Shown here: piece by piece, positions 31,441-45,984 of the stretch
Numbering within the stretch: the stretch's first letter is position 1
Layout: each line of letters opens with the position of its first letter
Source of the DNA: Rhodospirillales bacterium
Lineage (GTDB): Bacteria; Pseudomonadota; Alphaproteobacteria; JAJFIK01
Length of the DNA: 64,000 bases
NCBI GenBank assembly: GCA_021775005.1
Contig: JAJFIK010000045.1
Location: forward strand, 1 to 64,000
Direction of reading: 5' to 3'
Made by a program: the position numbers and the translations under genes
The notes under the pieces: model-generated
Seen by the model: the letters and a program-made list of their open reading frames with translations, nothing else
Told to the model about the DNA's origin: nothing
Database searches by the model: none

Positions 31441-32034
31441 ATGACCCTCTATAGAGGCGACACTTTGCACGAAGCCATGCCCAAAGCTGTGTGGGGCGAA
31501 AACTATGAGACCAAAAAGGGCGGCCCAAAGTCGCGCACTGGAAAGTTCGGCAGCAAGCCCTCCGCCAGTAAGATATTTAACGGCCGAGCCTCTGGGTCAT
31601 TAGATCAAGCGGTTCGTGCCGCTGTGAGGTCCGTGCGAAATGTTGAACGAAATTCCGGTCGCGGGTCCGAGAGCCACGGCACGATCATTTATAGAAACCT
31701 CATTGGCAGGTACACTTGGCAATTACCAAATGATAGTGCCGGAGACACACGCGGGATTGCTTTTGCCGATGGCTTTTCGCAGGCATTGGCTTACGTAAAG
31801 GGACAAGGGTTTGCTGGGCAACGACCATTTGAAGCAAGCCAAATGGCCCGAAGCCGCATGCCGCCCAGTTCGTTTAGAACGGTGATCTCACGCCTCGCTG
31901 GTCGAATGGATAACTCCGAATTCAAAGGGTATTGGGTTACTCATAGTACTAACCATGCCGCAAACCGAAGCGATCGGTTTCCAGCTAGCGTTTTTGAAGT
32001 TTCGGCCGGTGGAACCGTCAGATTGTGGGGATGA
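31441..32034 (+). CDS. N-terminal-tagged protein of unknown function (tag copy 1)
   Basis: A 197-residue protein that I do not recognise as a whole. The ATG preceded by GGAG is used; a TTG four codons earlier is unlikely. Residues 1-15 (MTLYRGDTLHEAMPK then AV) share spacing and several identities with the starts of two other local proteins (35605 and 39516). After a basic linker, the body has HGTIIYRNLIGRYTWQLPN followed by GIAFADGFSQAL, and ends GYWVTHSTNHAANRSDRF. The GTIIYR...G.YTW..P style is loosely like DUF4329/JAB-type domains of polymorphic toxins. This is suggestive only. It is followed after 3 nt by an exported protein gene. Its GC content is lower than the core genes. Confidence 0.7.
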   Translation: MTLYRGDTLHEAMPKAVWGENYETKKGGPKSRTGKFGSKPSASKIFNGRASGSLDQAVRAAVRSVRNVERNSGRGSESHGTIIYRNLIGRYTWQLPNDSAGDTRGIAFADGFSQALAYVKGQGFAGQRPFEASQMARSRMPPSSFRTVISRLAGRMDNSEFKGYWVTHSTNHAANRSDRFPASVFEVSAGGTVRLWG

Positions 32035-32037
32035 GAG

Positions 32038-32457
32038 ATGAAATACAGTTTTGTAGTCAGCACGCTCGCGCTCGCCATTAGCCTACTTGCTGCGGGCTAC
32101 GTCTGGCAGACTGAAACCAAACAACCACCATTGTATTCGACGGTTGTTGACTTTGTCGCGCACGGGCGAGCCTATGATGGAGATCGCACCGCCGTTTTTG
32201 GCTTCGCGACATTTGCGCCCTTCGCTGAATTCAGCGCGCTGTACATGAATTGTGACGCGCTGCTTAACCAAGAACGTGGCCAAGCAGTAAGATTGGTCCT
32301 CCTACGAGATCAATTCTCATATGACTTTCTTGAGAGCTTGAACGGAAAGTATGTCCTGGTGTCCGGCACCTATGAACATCCACTCACGCTCGCGGATATT
32401 GAGGTCATCGAGATTCCAGAAATCGAGTTTGGGCGCCCGACATGCTTCGATGAATAG
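32038..32457 (+). CDS. Exported or anchored OB-fold-like protein
   Basis: A 139-residue protein with an N-terminal hydrophobic segment (MKYSFVVSTLALAISLLAAG, residues 1-20) that should export or anchor it. The rest resembles a small family with an OB-fold-like pattern: a strand pair in YDGDRTAVFGFATFAPFAE, a surface LYMNCDALLN, and LNGKYVLVSGTYEHP near residue 100. Many proteins of that family are uncharacterised. It begins 3 nt after the first tagged gene, so cotranslation is likely. A role as its partner, for instance immunity, is an inference. Confidence 0.7.
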   Translation: MKYSFVVSTLALAISLLAAGYVWQTETKQPPLYSTVVDFVAHGRAYDGDRTAVFGFATFAPFAEFSALYMNCDALLNQERGQAVRLVLLRDQFSYDFLESLNGKYVLVSGTYEHPLTLADIEVIEIPEIEFGRPTCFDE

Positions 32458-32474
32458 GACGGGATGAAACGGTT

Positions 32475-32660
32475 GTGGATGCGATTGGGGTTGATACGAG
32501 CGTTTTCACATTGCTGGATTTGGAGCAATTGGATTCTGCCGCAATTATTGCAGCGGCACCCTGCGAGCAACTGGCAGAGGACATCTCCCAGGTGGACCCG
32601 GCGCTATCGCCAAGCGATGTCGTGCCGGCCATGCCGGCCCTATTGGCTTGTCGTCCATGA
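32475..32660 (+). CDS. Small open frame, possible protein
   Basis: A 61-residue frame starting with GTG and ending with the TGA of an ATGA overlap with the next gene. Its codon use looks coding-like (VDTSVFTLLDLEQLDSAA). No ribosome site is strong; a competing ATG at 32464 in another frame has AGGACGGG before it but encodes an implausible Trp/Arg-rich peptide. It could be a small gene or the remnant of a larger one. Confidence 0.35.
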   Translation: MDAIGVDTSVFTLLDLEQLDSAAIIAAAPCEQLAEDISQVDPALSPSDVVPAMPALLACRP

Positions 32661-33067
32661 CTTTTGAGGAGATGCCTGAAGAGGAATGGAGCCAGATCCC
32701 CGATATCCTCTACGCCACTTGGCTTGAAAGCGTTGAAGAGAGGTGCCTCATCAAAGCCCAAGCAGTTGCCCGGTTTTCGGAGGCGCTCAGTGAGGATGAT
32801 CAAAACAGCAACAGCTTTGAAGTTCTGCATCGCATTGCGATTCGGAGGACGCAATACGGCGTTCCATTTGCGGACCATGTTATATACAACGACATCATGG
32901 TTGCAGCACTTAGTGATCATTGCGACCGGAGGCAGGAAGCGCGGGGCTTTCTGTCTAGATATTGGATCGACAACCACGGAGCTGATCTCGCAATAGCAGA
33001 AGTTCAAATCGTCACATCAGTCGATGGCCTTACCATTCGTGACCTGGAATTCATTTCCTTGCGCTAG
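32657..33067 (+). CDS. Hypothetical protein
   Basis: A 136-residue protein with an acidic N-terminus (MTFEEMPEEEWSQIPDILYA) and mainly helical content; no signal peptide or membrane segment. I do not recognise it. The ATG overlaps the stop of the preceding 61-residue frame as ATGA; a TTG three codons earlier is an alternative. It is the last of four plus-strand genes downstream of the first tagged gene and converges with the paralogous anchored repeat protein, 17 nt away. Confidence 0.6.
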   Translation: MTFEEMPEEEWSQIPDILYATWLESVEERCLIKAQAVARFSEALSEDDQNSNSFEVLHRIAIRRTQYGVPFADHVIYNDIMVAALSDHCDRRQEARGFLSRYWIDNHGADLAIAEVQIVTSVDGLTIRDLEFISLR

Positions 33068-33084: not shown

Positions 33085-34455
33085 CTATTCTGCAACGACC
33101 TCTGCACCTGAATCAGACTCTGCTTCTGTATTTGGCCCTGGCTCGCTTTCCGCAACTACTTCTGCATCCACTTCGGTAGCGACTGCATCGCCGGCTCCAT
33201 CGGTTGCACCCAGCGCATCATCCTGGCCAATATCCTCACCAATGATCTCGTCACCGATTTGCGCGCCCGGCTTTGTGGGGGCGGGTATGGGCGCCCCATT
33301 GGGGTCTTCCAAACGACAGTGAAAGCCGCCAGCACCTGGGTCTTGCGGTAAATAGGCCTGGATGAGGTCGAACTCACCCTTTTCAACCGCTTCCAGCGCC
33401 GCTGCAATGCGCTCACTGGCGGCCGCATCAAGGTCGTGATGATCCTCAGTCGCCTCGGTTTCGGCCTCAGTTTCGGCAAACGCCGCTGTGGCGCGCGACC
33501 AGAACAGCGCCGCTTCCGGGCTGGCCTCGATAAATTCCCCATCGCTGTAGAGCGCCACCAACCGATGGCCAGACCCTTCATGCCTGCGGCCCACAAGCAA
33601 TTCAGCCCAAGTCGCGGCACTGTTTGCCATTTGTGTGGCGCGGGCATTGGGAAGTCGTCGCTCACACGCGGTGGCATATCGCCCGCGGCCCATTCTGAGC
33701 TCAAGATCAACCTGCTGGCTCAAGGCTTCGTTCGCAATATCGCCGTCATCACCGGTGAAGTAGATCGAATACAGATTATCAGCGAAACCAAACGCCGCTT
33801 CAATTTGATCTGCGTCGCTCAGCCCATAGACAACTTCCGCTGCAGTTTGGGCCAGCATCAATTGGCGCGCCGCGCATTCCCACTCACGTGCTTCCCATGC
33901 GGATGAGACATATGCCGCATCGTCCAAGTGCGCCGCGATTTGATTGAGCATGCTGTAGAGGGTGCTCTGTTCATAGGTGGCCCCATCGCACCGTAGATTG
34001 TGGGCCGTAAGTCGCAGCCAAAACAACCACGGATACGCGACGCCCAGTTCATCTAGCGAGTCCCATTCGGTCGAGCCGTAGTTCGAATTGACAAGACGCG
34101 TAAGCCAGCCTTGGGGGGCGTTGCCATAGAACGTGTCATATCCATAGCTCGCCGATTCCACGGCATACCCAAGATACTCGGCCTCCGTGTCTGGGGCGCT
34201 CAACTTACATGGCGGGTCCGCAAGAAACGCCGCAGAGGCCGCAAGAGAGTCTTCATCGCCCTCATAATTCAAATTCGAGATCACCGAATAAGCGAGATCG
34301 CATTCCCCGACCTCCAAAAGGTCAGCCGACGCTTGGCGCCAATCCAGTTCCAACCGCGGCAGAGGCCAAAATGCCCACGCAATTGCAACGCTTGCCGCCA
34401 CAGCCAATGCACCGCATGCAGCCAAGAGACCAAGTATCAATCGCACCCAAGCCAT
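33085..34455 (-). CDS. Membrane-anchored helical-repeat protein (Cys-spaced paralogue A)
   Basis: A 456-residue protein with one N-terminal membrane segment (MAWVRLILGLLAACGALAV). It continues as an alpha-helical repeat-like domain outside the membrane and ends with an acidic, Glu/Ala-rich tail after residue 360. The ATG preceded by GGGGG is chosen; a GTG 11 codons upstream is possible. The exported part shares a pattern with the lipoprotein at 36260-36997: WR, then 14 residues later a Cys, then 31 further to the next Cys. A third pair, RCDG with a Cys 38 residues on, also matches. The Cys pairs are probably disulfides in the periplasm. Function unknown. Confidence 0.72.
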   Translation of the reverse strand: MAWVRLILGLLAACGALAVAASVAIAWAFWPLPRLELDWRQASADLLEVGECDLAYSVISNLNYEGDEDSLAASAAFLADPPCKLSAPDTEAEYLGYAVESASYGYDTFYGNAPQGWLTRLVNSNYGSTEWDSLDELGVAYPWLFWLRLTAHNLRCDGATYEQSTLYSMLNQIAAHLDDAAYVSSAWEAREWECAARQLMLAQTAAEVVYGLSDADQIEAAFGFADNLYSIYFTGDDGDIANEALSQQVDLELRMGRGRYATACERRLPNARATQMANSAATWAELLVGRRHEGSGHRLVALYSDGEFIEASPEAALFWSRATAAFAETEAETEATEDHHDLDAAASERIAAALEAVEKGEFDLIQAYLPQDPGAGGFHCRLEDPNGAPIPAPTKPGAQIGDEIIGEDIGQDDALGATDGAGDAVATEVDAEVVAESEPGPNTEAESDSGAEVVAE

Positions 34456-34638
34456 CGCACACCCCCATCCCATAACCCGTCTGTTCACTTATTGTTCTAG
34501 TCGCAAACATAGTATAATGGCAGTGTACACGCAAGAGCTGGTTGCCCGGCACGCCCTATGCGACGCAGACGAAAAATGTTAGGTGCTGTGCCGCTTTGGG
34601 GCGCGAAGTGCCTCTTAATCCTGGCTGATGAGTGAAAA

Positions 34639-35502
34639 ATGAACCGGCAAGAACGGCGTAAAGCTGAAAAAGAATGGGCTCAAAACAACAAAGAGCTCGA
34701 CTGGAAACGCGGCGTGAATGAAGAATTCAATGCCGCCAAGGAAATGCATCAGCAAGGCCGCCTGGCCGAGGCGGAGGCCGCCTATAAGGCCGTCCTCAAA
34801 AAAGTGCCGGGACAGCCGGATGTCTTGTTTGCCTTGGCCATGCTCGCCAATCAGTTGGAGCAATTAGGTGAGACGGAACATTATCTTCGTCTGTCGCTCG
34901 CCTCAGAAGCCAAGCAACCGCACGTGTTGCAAGAACTTGGCGCGCTGCTTCACAAGACCAAACGCTTTGCTGCGGCTGAGGAATGTTTCCGCGACGGGCT
35001 GAAGCTCAAGCCGGACTCCGGGAGCCTTTGGTTCAATTTGGGCATCAGCCAAATGCAGCAAGGCAAGCTTGACGATGCCATTGAGGCCTTCGACGAGACC
35101 TTGAAGTACGAAAAAGACTTTGCCATGGGGGTTTATTACATTGGGCGGTGTCAAGCGGCCAAAGGCGATCATGAATTGGCCCTCGCCAAGTTTCGCGAGG
35201 CCCTCAAGATTATGCCCGAGGCCTATCCCCCAAGTCTCGACATCGCCACTTCCCTGGGCAAGCTAGAGCGCTGGGATGAAGCGCTTGAGGCTGCGCAAGC
35301 CGTCAACGATCAGCACCCCGGTGTTGCCGAGGCCATGTATGTGCTGGGCTGGGCGCAAGAGGGCGGCGGCAACGATGAAGATGCGGCTGAAACCTATCGC
35401 GATATCCTCGATCGGGAGCCCGGTCACACCCAAGCGCAACAAAGTCTCGCGCGGCTGACCGGGGAAGATCCAAGCGGCGCAGGCGGCGGCGCGGCGGCTT
35501 AA
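34639..35502 (+). CDS. TPR-repeat protein
   Basis: A 287-residue cytoplasmic protein with tetratricopeptide repeats and no signal peptide. Repeat units include AKEMHQQGRLAEAEAAYKAV, LKKTKRF-like blocks with AAAEECFRDGLKLKPDSG, QQGKLDDAIEAFDETLKYE and EDAAETYRDILDREPG. The first 30 residues are charged (MNRQERRKAEKEWAQNNKEL). The tail is Gly/Ala-rich. TPR domains bind partner proteins; the partner is unknown. No clear ribosome site lies before the ATG. It is encoded between the two Cys-paralogue/tag clusters, so a role there is possible but unproven. Confidence 0.85.
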   Translation: MNRQERRKAEKEWAQNNKELDWKRGVNEEFNAAKEMHQQGRLAEAEAAYKAVLKKVPGQPDVLFALAMLANQLEQLGETEHYLRLSLASEAKQPHVLQELGALLHKTKRFAAAEECFRDGLKLKPDSGSLWFNLGISQMQQGKLDDAIEAFDETLKYEKDFAMGVYYIGRCQAAKGDHELALAKFREALKIMPEAYPPSLDIATSLGKLERWDEALEAAQAVNDQHPGVAEAMYVLGWAQEGGGNDEDAAETYRDILDREPGHTQAQQSLARLTGEDPSGAGGGAAA

Positions 35503-35604
35503 GGCGGCGACCTGCTCTCAGAAATCAATCCCCCTTTAATTCCCACTCTCTGAGGTGGGCGCAAAATGCTTCCTGGACCACAACCCCCCAGGAGGCATTC
35601 CCCC

Positions 35605-36255
35605 ATGATCTACAAAGGCAGAACAACCCGCGAAGCCATCGCCAAGGCCGTGCGAGCGGGGCGGAGCAAACAAACAACTTCACAGAATACATGCACAAGC
35701 CTGGAGCGTCAGCTTCAGGATGCGCTCCGCGAGGTGCGGCGGCGTGCAAGCGAGTTCGAGCGATTGATTGAACGCGCGAGAGACGCGATCGCTGAGTTGG
35801 GGCAAAGTCAACGCGACAGCGACGCTGCTCAGAAAATCGCTGATCACATTGCTCTTGTGGATTCATATGCATTGGGGCCGGGAACTATCCATTCAATCAT
35901 GAGGGCAAGTGATCCTGGCCGGTTTCGCCCGCGGGCGAATCGCAATTGGTATACCGAAACCATAGGCGTTCTTGAGGGAATCGTGTTCCCCGACCGGCGG
36001 GCAAGGTTTGCAAGGCAAGTTCTCGGCCGGTCTGAAGGGCGGTTGGAAACATTTCATAATGAATCAATTATCGCGAGGCGTGCTCTCAATGTGGCGCGAG
36101 ACCGCGCGGTGGATATCGGTACGCGCTTACTGGCATGCCAAATACTGAACGAACAACCCGATCCCGAACTTCCCGCGCATTCGGTGCCAAGCATATTCGA
36201 TGTTCCCAGATCAGCAATTGGTGGGCCGGAGCGATCTCGACCTAAGAAGAAATAG
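35605..36255 (+). CDS. N-terminal-tagged coiled-coil protein (tag copy 2)
   Basis: A 216-residue protein starting MIYKGRTTREAIAKAVRAG, preceded by AGGAGG; an earlier in-frame codon would add 13 residues with no support. The first 19 residues match the start of the proteins at 39516 (TTREAIxKAV) and, less strongly, 31441. A Ser/Thr/Gln linker follows, then a coiled coil from about residue 30 (LERQLQDALREVRRRASEFE, then RLIERARDAIAEL), then a body I do not recognise. It ends in a basic KKK tail. No membrane segment is clear. It converges with the lipoprotein gene at 36260, with a 4-nt gap. Confidence 0.72.
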   Translation: MIYKGRTTREAIAKAVRAGRSKQTTSQNTCTSLERQLQDALREVRRRASEFERLIERARDAIAELGQSQRDSDAAQKIADHIALVDSYALGPGTIHSIMRASDPGRFRPRANRNWYTETIGVLEGIVFPDRRARFARQVLGRSEGRLETFHNESIIARRALNVARDRAVDIGTRLLACQILNEQPDPELPAHSVPSIFDVPRSAIGGPERSRPKKK

Positions 36256-36259
36256 AATC

Positions 36260-36997
36260 TCAGGGCGACCACGATCCCGCAAGAATGCGAAGGGTCACTT
36301 GGAATTCCCCGAGCGTATCTGCAACGAGTTCAATTGCCTCAGCGCGCGCCTGTTGCGCCAACAGATTTTCATAGTGCTGCGCCAAATCGGCACCAATGGG
36401 TATGCATTGGGAAATCCGCTCATCCCACTCCGGAATGAGGTATTGATCATCATTGAGCTCGGACGCCATCAATTGTCGCAAGCGATAGGCGTTGCCTGTG
36501 CGCAGCTCAAGCGGCCCCTCGCAATGGGCTACCCAATGGCGTTCAGCCGAACGAAGCCGATCAGACAGCACAACTTGCAAGTCTCTGTACTGTTGAATTT
36601 GAAACGCGCGCGCCGTTGGTGTTCCTACAAAGTCACGAAGGCGTCGAATGTCCTGGTGCGCGCTGAATGGATCACTATCTGCGCCTTCACGAAGCGAGGC
36701 CGCTGTTTGCGCATACAGGCCTGGCATGGCCTCTCCGCAAGGGGCCAGCGCTTCCAAGTCGTTGGCGTAGTCAGCGGCGGCGCGCGCGTCTTTGAGCTGC
36801 ATTAGCGTAAGAATCGGCCATATCGCACCACATGGCCCCTCTTCAAATAGCTGTTCAACAATGGGCCGCCACTCGATGTTCGGATCCGGCAGCGGATCGT
36901 ATGTAACGGGGGCCTCCTCCGCTGGACCGTCACAGGCGGCAAGCAGCAGGGCCGCTAACAGCGTAAAAGCACATGCATTTGCCTTTTCGTGAAACAT
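36260..36997 (-). CDS. Lipoprotein (Cys-spaced paralogue B)
   Basis: A 245-residue lipoprotein: a basic N-terminus, hydrophobic core and lipobox ALLLAAC at Cys22. The mature protein reads DPNIEWRPIVEQLFEEGPC, then 31 residues to LAPC, then HCEG with another Cys 39 residues later. The protein at 33085 has WR...C at the same 14-residue distance, the same 31-residue gap and nearly the same final pair, so these are paralogues. Both are exported and helical, with likely disulfides. It is 24 nt downstream of the prolyl oligopeptidase gene on the same strand, likely in one transcript. Confidence 0.75.
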   Translation of the reverse strand: MFHEKANACAFTLLAALLLAACDGPAEEAPVTYDPLPDPNIEWRPIVEQLFEEGPCGAIWPILTLMQLKDARAAADYANDLEALAPCGEAMPGLYAQTAASLREGADSDPFSAHQDIRRLRDFVGTPTARAFQIQQYRDLQVVLSDRLRSAERHWVAHCEGPLELRTGNAYRLRQLMASELNDDQYLIPEWDERISQCIPIGADLAQHYENLLAQQARAEAIELVADTLGEFQVTLRILAGSWSP

Positions 36998-39515: not shown

Positions 39516-40067
39516 ATGAAATTTACCGGAAAGACGACTAGAGAGGCCATAAGCAAGGCCGTAAATCATGGCCGAAAGTCAACTAGACGATCCCCATCCG
39601 ACTGTGACGACATTGAGTCTCGCCTGCGGAAAATGGAGATCCAAATTGAGGAGATGCGCAAGAGATATTCGGGATTGCGCAGTCAAATCTCAAACCTTCG
39701 AAGAGATCAAAGACAGGTAAGCGCTAGGATCGGATTGGAGGTTTCACTAATGATATTTGCCATTGGGCGTCTTGCCAAAGCCGGAAGAATTGCTGCCCGC
39801 ATCCGGCAACTGTTACGCCGACAAGACCAACTTGGACAAATTGGATTGGTCTTGGTTTTAATTGGCGAAGTCTTCGGCGCTATGGATGTTATCGAACTTG
39901 CGCAAGAATCTGCAGACATTGATAATCAATTGCGCCAGATCGTGCGGGAGAACAACAGCCTCGGAGCCAGCATGTACAAACTTGGTCTTGTTGTAGAGGA
40001 CCTCCAGCGGAGGTACAAAGAAAGTGATTGCTTTCGCGCGCTTAGTGACCGCGAGGCAATGTCCTAA
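39516..40067 (+). CDS. N-terminal-tagged coiled-coil and hydrophobic-helix protein (tag copy 3)
   Basis: A 183-residue protein starting MKFTGKTTREAISKAVNHG, with GAAAGGAG just upstream of the ATG; the open frame upstream has no support. The tag is nine-for-nine identical over TTREAI-KAV to the copy at 35605, apart from one intervening residue, yet most of those codons differ. A Lys/Arg/Ser linker leads into a coiled coil (DDIESRLRKMEIQIEEMRKR and onwards). Two hydrophobic helices follow, VSLMIFAIGRLAKAG and IGLVLVLIGEVFGAM, which could insert in membranes, then a polar C-terminus. It directly precedes dapF by 46 nt. Function unknown. Confidence 0.72.
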   Translation: MKFTGKTTREAISKAVNHGRKSTRRSPSDCDDIESRLRKMEIQIEEMRKRYSGLRSQISNLRRDQRQVSARIGLEVSLMIFAIGRLAKAGRIAARIRQLLRRQDQLGQIGLVLVLIGEVFGAMDVIELAQESADIDNQLRQIVRENNSLGASMYKLGLVVEDLQRRYKESDCFRALSDREAMS

Positions 40068-45198: not shown

Positions 45199-45984
45199 GT
45201 GAAAAAAGCGACTAAGAAACGTGTCGTCAAGAAAGCTGCAAAGCGAAAGACGGCGAAACGTAAGACTGCCAAGAAAGCGACGAAACGGAAAACCGTGAAG
45301 CGCAAGACGGCGAAGAAAGCAACCAAGCGTAAGACGGCGAAGCGGAAGACCGCGAAGAAAGCCACGAAGCGCAAAGCTGCTAAGAAGAAGACCGCTAAGA
45401 AAACCACGAAGCGTAAAACTGCTAAGCGCAAAACCGCAAAGCGGAAAACGGCCAAGCGTAAAACTGCTAAGCGCAAAACCGCAAAGCGTAAAACTGCTAA
45501 GCGCAAAACCGCAAAGCGCAAAACCGCAAAGCGTAAAACCGCCAAGCGGAAAACCGCCAAGCGGAAAACAGCTAAGCGCAAAACCGCCAGGCGGAAAGTC
45601 GCGAAGCGGTCGACCAAAAAGGCTGTAAAGCGGTCTGCAAAACGCAAAACCGCCAAAAAGGCGACAAAGCGTAAGACTGCCAAGCGCAAGACGGCAAAGA
45701 AGGCCACGAAGCGGAAAACTGCTAAGCGTAAAACCGCAAAGCGTAAAACCGCAAAGAAGGCCACTAAGCGTAAAACCGCTAAGCGCAAAACTGCTAAGCG
45801 GAAAACGGCCAAGCGCAAAACGGCCAAGCGTAAAACGGCTAAGCGGAAAACGGCTAAGCGGAAGACCGCGAAGAAGGCCACTAAGCGCAAAACTGCAAAG
45901 CGTAAGGCCGCTAAGAAGGCGACAAAGCGTAAAACTGCTAAGCGTAAAACCGCTAAGCGGAAGACCGCTAAACGCAAGAAATAG
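45199..45984 (+). CDS. Histone H1-like Lys/Arg repeat protein
   Basis: A 261-residue protein of only Ala, Lys, Arg, Thr and a few Val/Ser, made of tandem AKRKT units with occasional AKKATKRKT units. Each unit is 15 nt, so the DNA is a coding tandem repeat from about 45240 to 45980. The composition is that of bacterial histone H1-like proteins such as HctB or AlgP tails, expected to bind and condense DNA. The start is uncertain: the GTG at 45199 has no good ribosome site, and the frame is open back to the -1 frame of the MarR gene end. It may therefore be translated as a fusion. A strong terminator follows. Confidence 0.72.
   Translation: MKKATKKRVVKKAAKRKTAKRKTAKKATKRKTVKRKTAKKATKRKTAKRKTAKKATKRKAAKKKTAKKTTKRKTAKRKTAKRKTAKRKTAKRKTAKRKTAKRKTAKRKTAKRKTAKRKTAKRKTAKRKTARRKVAKRSTKKAVKRSAKRKTAKKATKRKTAKRKTAKKATKRKTAKRKTAKRKTAKKATKRKTAKRKTAKRKTAKRKTAKRKTAKRKTAKRKTAKKATKRKTAKRKAAKKATKRKTAKRKTAKRKTAKRKK

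Follow-up and report, generated by a model that had tools for sequence, protein, structure and literature searches.

What do two exported proteins with the same cysteine spacing do among genes that share a short N-terminal tag? The question is raised by P0001 and P0002, which are encoded on a 64,000-nucleotide stretch of contig JAJFIK010000045.1 from a Rhodospirillales bacterium (hereafter, the window; Table 1). Comparison of the window's genome (G000) with those of two congeners (G001 and G002) and of two bacteria of the same class and another family (G227 and G124) places the two proteins in an immunity-like four-Cys family, which is absent from the searched libraries and forms part of a polymorphic effector system that is compact and marked by a short tag of a new kind. 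We favor, with moderate confidence, a reading in which the Cys proteins, located on the outer face of the inner membrane, confer immunity to a disulfide-bracketed helical effector that carries this new N-terminal sorting tag.

P0001 and P0002 exhibit the common pattern W-13-C-31-C-72/73-C-38/39-C plus WxxRxxxC in one register. The residues involved are W50, R51, C63, C94, C167 (CDG), W198xxR and C205 in P0001, and W43, R44, C56, C87, C159 (CEG), W191xxR and C198 in P0002, with a constant offset of 7 for C63/C56, C94/C87, W198/W191 and C205/C198. In both proteins the W-to-C1, C1-C2 and C1-C4 distances are 13, 31 and 142 residues; the CDG/CEG motif alone departs from the register, by one residue, and the alignment has a gap in its vicinity. 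The local alignment of the two proteins scores 54, compared with 32 ± 5 for shuffled sequences (4/1000 of which reach 54), and the end-free alignment score is reached by 0/1000 shuffles. BLASTP aligns 35 residues with 26% identity and an E value of 0.003 in a single comparison, a result that is weak when taken alone. With an identity of merely ~25%, the common spacing might be ascribed to chance. A hidden Markov model (HMM) built from six other family members, excluding both P0001 and P0002, and searched against 2705 six-frame stretches, detects P0001 with an E value of 9e-11 and P0002 with 4e-9, and the residues W, C, C, C, WxxR and C are invariant across nine rows. These matches indicate that the likeness is one of homology. 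Judged by sequence, the two proteins are true homologues within one family, and coincidence, the probability of which we consider negligible, is refuted at the level of profile statistics. The first-pass annotation had claimed identical placing of the cysteines, W-R and WxxR at low overall identity, and residue positions, shuffles and the leave-out HMM bear this out. Its description of an exported paralogue pair, one anchored by a membrane segment and the other by a lipid, also agrees with the profile homology, the hydrophobic N-terminus of P0001 and the LAAC-DG lipobox of P0002.

The family comprises 13 members in five alphaproteobacterial genomes: G000 has five (P0001, P0002 and, on contig C88, three tandem copies), G001 and G227 have three each, and G002 and G124 a single one; one of the G001 members is truncated by a contig end. 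Most are ~190–260 aa long. Twelve members were read residue by residue; the C1-C2 distance is 31 in 11 of them and 32 in the other. A hydrophobic N-terminal anchor or a lipobox is present in every complete member from the genus and in the C369 member of G227. In both lipoproteins the lipid-bearing Cys is followed by Asp, which at this position acts as an inner-membrane retention signal for E. coli lipoproteins. Searches with the family against Pfam, NCBIfam and PADLOC, and with P0001 and P0002 against PHROG, gave no match. Likewise, a search for a related solved structure found none, a search of plasmids found no family member, and a wider contig search yielded nothing beyond the loci already known.

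AlphaFold models of P0001 and P0002, computed with six sequences, are all-helical, with a mean predicted local distance difference test (pLDDT) score of 51 for P0002 and 49 for P0001, too poor for disulfide pairing; only residues 1–97 and parts of 167–220 of P0001 exceed 55. Within the first of these regions, C63 and C94 are placed at the ends of a predicted helical hairpin. Foldseek searches with these weak models gave no useful match (best E value 0.6). The all-helical prediction, with cysteines at the start and end of a modeled hairpin, is reminiscent of the Sel1-like/TPR helical repeat proteins, which include the disulfide-closed Helicobacter cysteine-rich proteins, and the C-termini of the G227 and G124 members appear repeat-like by eye. 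In contrast, the cysteines in the four-Cys family are spaced by 31 and 37–41 residues rather than arranged as short pairs, and neither P0001, its C-terminal extension nor the G227 members match Sel1 (PF08238) or TPR in Pfam. The four-Cys domain of P0001 spans approximately residues 40–225 and is followed by this 240-aa extension, which has an acidic tail. Equating the extension with the G227/G124 repeats was rejected, because the profile match spans the N-terminal Cys region alone.

The tag consists of 16–19 N-terminal residues (MxFxGxTxxEAxxKAVxxG) on small proteins of ~160–250 aa. Searches with a 19-residue tag profile (A5) located 16 sites within the genus (6, 6 and 4 per genome); among 289 relatives within the class, the tag is clear only in G227. 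At the 16 sites, this single tag heads coiled-coil, JAB-like, serum amyloid A (SAA) and unassigned C-termini. The coiled-coil proteins contain two invariant cysteines, C29 and C177, lying at about positions 30 and 173, and are otherwise almost Cys-free. The JAB-like proteins are defined by an HSHP...D signature (loci L070–L074 and L076), a motif only, with no Pfam match, and the SAA tag proteins of G001 and G002 match PF00277 with E values of 1e-23 and 4e-24. A KPS/FGK-rich linker is present in most members of the JAB-like and SAA classes. The tag bears a weak likeness to the first 15 of the 50 positions of Jag_N (PF14804), which is not significant (E value 0.02, below the cut-off). A match of the coiled-coil profile on C11 of G227 was discarded as a false positive, the protein being a sensor kinase.

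Where the contig continues, an exported Cys-bearing partner of a type specific to the tag class follows. For JAB-like proteins it consists of arrayed 'C.V..LY..P..Y.E.VICTEG' units, for SAA proteins it is small and Cys-rich, and coiled-coil proteins have a member of the four-Cys family next to them. Such a partner adjoins nearly all readable tag genes, except those at window position 39516 and at L109 3528, and L073 runs off its contig. A common tag on unrelated C-termini, each with a different exported cysteine protein, is the mark of polymorphic toxin/immunity architecture, and as far as predicted domains can tell, this is the gene layout seen here. At L072 3542-4270 an exported repeat protein runs into a JAB-like relic, an apparent cassette recombination as in polymorphic loci. 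Several further observations were made at the tag loci. Exported proteins built from the 'C.V..LY' units cluster around the JAB-like tag gene of L072:2591-9949 (G000 contig C8), and a gene for a CsgG/HfaB-like secreted lipoprotein, named by eye only, lies near a JAB-like tag gene of G001 (L071:2315-3337). The SAA tag proteins at L069:4878-5363 and L075:4184-4675 contain four cysteines each and precede the small exported Cys-rich protein. The coiled-coil tag gene at L022:13024-13566 (G001) has a frame break directly after the tag, due to either an assembly error or a pseudogene.

Eight Cys genes, at six loci in four metagenome-assembled genomes (MAGs), abut a coiled-coil tag gene (Table 1). With ~6 tag genes among ~2,800 genes, chance contact of a Cys gene with a tag gene is estimated at <1%. 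The first-pass annotation had proposed to look for further copies near tag genes in other genomes; these were found in G001, G002 and G227. The lipid-anchored members lie tail to tail with the tag gene in 2/2 cases, and the transmembrane-anchored members head to head at 4/4 loci. The earlier suggestion that Cys and tag genes are parts of one exported system stands with respect to the tie between them, which the adjacency supports, but is not supported with respect to subunits of one machine, as the arrangement looks toxin/immunity-like. A ninth Cys gene, on C587 of G227, lies 9 nt from a gene for a two-Cys coiled-coil protein with a different N-terminus, which implies that the Cys/coiled-coil pair travels apart from the tag; this coiled-coil protein was searched for in phages and not found. 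A tenth, on C222 of G001, faces a possible coiled-coil relic.

The C587 pair is flanked by two phage genes, one for a portal protein (phrog_12082, 4e-155) and the other for a major head protein (phrog_9953, 2e-71). This context would suit Cys proteins that act against phages or other mobile elements, through surface or superinfection exclusion, the injected component being the coiled-coil protein. We regard such a function as very improbable, since no member of the portal family occurs in the three genomes of the genus, and the pairs in these genomes are surrounded by housekeeping genes. The portal and major head genes (L106:1-11000) also enclose proteins with repeated SLDELALLALxxAP motifs, and the enclosed proteins may be cargo of a capsid or of a domesticated phage particle.

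The paired genes diverge rapidly. Between G000 and G001, the flanking asd, trmD, ffh, S9 peptidase, dapF and mtaB products are 64–83% identical, as compared with 52% for the TPR protein, 27% for the two lipoproteins and 22–30% for the tag proteins. At the C88/G002 site, identity is 86–88% for the flanks but drops to 38% for the Cys proteins and to 29% for the tag proteins. Overall, congener identity is 22–38% for Cys and tag genes versus 64–88% for flanking genes. This strong local divergence, together with the paralogue triplet and the relic cassettes, fits with an arms race. The same adjacency and co-divergence would be seen if the Cys proteins were periplasmic chaperones or export partners, which receive the coiled-coil protein past the inner membrane and aid its folding or onward transport, with no toxicity involved; the predicted helical look of the Cys domain would suit this role, and orphan Cys copies exist. 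Yet one route should use one shared partner, whereas the exported partners are unrelated to one another and differ from one tag class to the next, and on C88 three tandem Cys copies are set against a single tag gene. A chaperone role is thus considered rather unlikely.

Known systems provide a further gauge of the toxin/immunity reading. Polymorphic toxin systems also combine a common N-terminal sorting region and varied C-termini with adjacent immunity candidates, and include JAB toxin tips and lipoprotein immunity (Imm65), a lipoprotein immunity protein accompanying a JAB toxin clade (PMC3482391, Zhang et al. 2012). In contrast, the present tag is very short, gave no trafficking-domain match in our searches, heads small proteins and is found in one genus and one further MAG. 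A C-terminal toxin domain of known type is present in the SAA class, is indicated by motif only in the JAB-like class, and is lacking in the coiled-coil class. Prok-SAA is a polymorphic-toxin tip of the lipocone type whose immunity proteins are transmembrane proteins or lipoproteins, one type having four absolutely conserved Cys (PMC12419801, eLife 2025). The G001 and G002 tag proteins that end in PF00277 resemble this system, including their small exported Cys-rich neighbor, and the four-Cys family is likewise predicted to be membrane-anchored in the periplasm. The four-Cys proteins differ in that their partners are coiled-coil tag proteins without an SAA match, not adjacent to a lipocone domain, and in their predicted helical structure and length, whereas lipocone immunity proteins are formed by a helix and four strands.

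Alternatively, tag and Cys proteins might form a fast-evolving envelope or adhesion complex devoid of toxin function: the two partners probably encounter each other in the periplasm, envelope scaffolds often contain coiled coils, and the coiled-coil class gives broad coiled-coil matches only. This explanation does not account for the occurrence of the tag on two kinds of domain that have been described as toxin tips (SAA and JAB-like), or for the duplicated and relic cassettes at the loci, and is judged distinctly unlikely.

Under the toxin/immunity reading, the tag would send the coiled-coil toxin out of the producer cell. The toxin would adopt a helical, hairpin-like fold that its two invariant cysteines close. 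Its target would be the envelope, probably the inner membrane of a sibling or competing cell, which it would approach from the periplasmic side. Anchored to the outer face of the inner membrane through a transmembrane segment or a lipid, the Cys protein would bind the toxin at this site and block it. The position of the immunity candidates, at the inner membrane and facing the periplasm, is the reason for placing the action of the toxin there. The two invariant cysteines, with otherwise almost none, suggest that the toxin candidate ends in an oxidizing place and is disulfide-closed, and the hydrophobic middle of several coiled-coil members hints at possible membrane insertion.

The genomes of the genus are 91–98% complete; hence, absence of a conserved delivery machine from all three is informative, yet not final. 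TssC was not found in the three, and type VI delivery was rejected on this ground. The same applies to contractile injection or tailocin delivery, as no sheath of phages or extracellular contractile injection systems was found, and to phage-capsid delivery as on C587 of G227, as the G227-type portal family is absent. Type IV delivery was rejected because VirB4 is limited to G000. A joint reading, which we put forward tentatively and consider doubtful as a whole, takes the tag as a new delivery route, the four-Cys domain as a new periplasmic immunity fold and the coiled-coil protein as a new disulfide-closed membrane toxin. Very small effectors, consisting of the tag, often a KPS-FGK linker and a C-terminal domain, would then exit via machinery other than type VI or contractile systems; a dedicated exported cysteine protein would neutralize each of them at the inner membrane, and the immunity fold would derive from a stand-alone envelope protein (the G124/G227 orthologues).

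Several points weigh against the toxin/immunity reading. The coiled-coil class matches no known toxin family, and the hydrophobicity of its coiled-coil region varies (19-residue maximum of 0.8 to 2.0), which makes membrane insertion uncertain. The TssC, sheath, VirB4 and portal searches revealed no delivery system; type I secretion and other routes were not searched. The coiled-coil tag genes at window position 39516 and L109 3528 have no adjacent Cys gene, although in the former case G001 does carry one at the equivalent position before dapF. A coiled-coil tag gene is also missing beside P0001, whose neighbor is a broken open reading frame (ORF), and beside the copies in G227 (C300) and G124, which are orthologous and stand alone next to a transporter gene, ~1.5 kb from dapF in G124. 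Thus, the four-Cys domain also exists as a stand-alone envelope protein without a toxin-like neighbor, and such a protein may have been the origin of the immunity role. Lastly, toxicity and binding are properties that we infer, as are disulfide pairing, site of action and export.

Table 1 Features of the window, and four-Cys genes paired with coiled-coil tag genes.
Feature	Location	Strand	Description
P0001	33085..34488	-	467 aa; membrane-anchored four-Cys domain and C-terminal extension; start GTG at 34488 or ATG at 34455
P0002	36260..36997	-	245 aa; lipoprotein, LAAC-DG lipobox, four-Cys domain
Tag effector, coiled-coil class	35605..36255	+	MIYKGRTTREAIAKAVRAG followed by helical region bracketed by Cys30 and Cys178; presumed P0002 partner
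Tag effector, coiled-coil class	39516..40067	+	Cys30, Cys172, hydrophobic stretch 111-129
Tag protein	31441..32034	+	KPS-type linker, different unassigned C-terminal domain, weak JAB-class resemblance
Exported 139-aa protein	32038..32457	+	Hydrophobic N-terminus; 3 nt after 31441 gene, its presumed partner
Apparently broken ORF	32463..33067	+	Two frames, Cys-bearing; between exported gene and P0001; ORF 32648-33067 listed
TPR protein	34639..35502	+	Cytoplasmic; neighbor only
P0002 and 35605-36255 tag gene	G000, window		Tail to tail, 4 nt apart
Lipoprotein gene and tag gene	G001		Tail to tail, 25 nt
C88 triplet and single tag gene	G000		Head to head, 126 nt
Anchored Cys gene and tag gene	G001		Head to head; tag gene frame-broken in assembly
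Cys gene and tag gene	G002		Head to head, 116 nt
C369 Cys gene and tag gene	G227		Head to head, 143 nt

Among the remaining genes of the window, the TPR gene had been counted by the first-pass annotation as part of the system. This view is not sustained: the protein has no signal sequence, its congener identity is the intermediate value given above, and the order ffh-TPR-S9 peptidase is kept in all three genomes of the genus, including G002 (L109), where no Cys gene is adjacent. The TPR gene is a fixed neighbor outside the system. The exported 139-aa protein has no family match, and an assignment of the 31441 product as a JAB protein with an OB-like partner at 32038 was dropped, as the profile scores are too weak. 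The broken ORF is likely a relic and may be that of another partner gene. Further downstream (45199-45984), a long run of AKRKTAK/KKATKRKT repeats belongs to a histone-H1-like lysine-rich protein; a similar lysine-rich stretch in G001 (L022 18511-19482) is listed on the other strand.

A few cysteines whose spacing was spotted by eye sufficed to reveal a family that is absent from the standard libraries. If the toxin/immunity reading is true, a group of uncultured alphaproteobacteria in which our searches detected neither type VI nor contractile machinery would possess a compact toxin/immunity system, comprising a new immunity family and a new putative membrane-active toxin, and its short sorting tag could be used to find the missing delivery machine.

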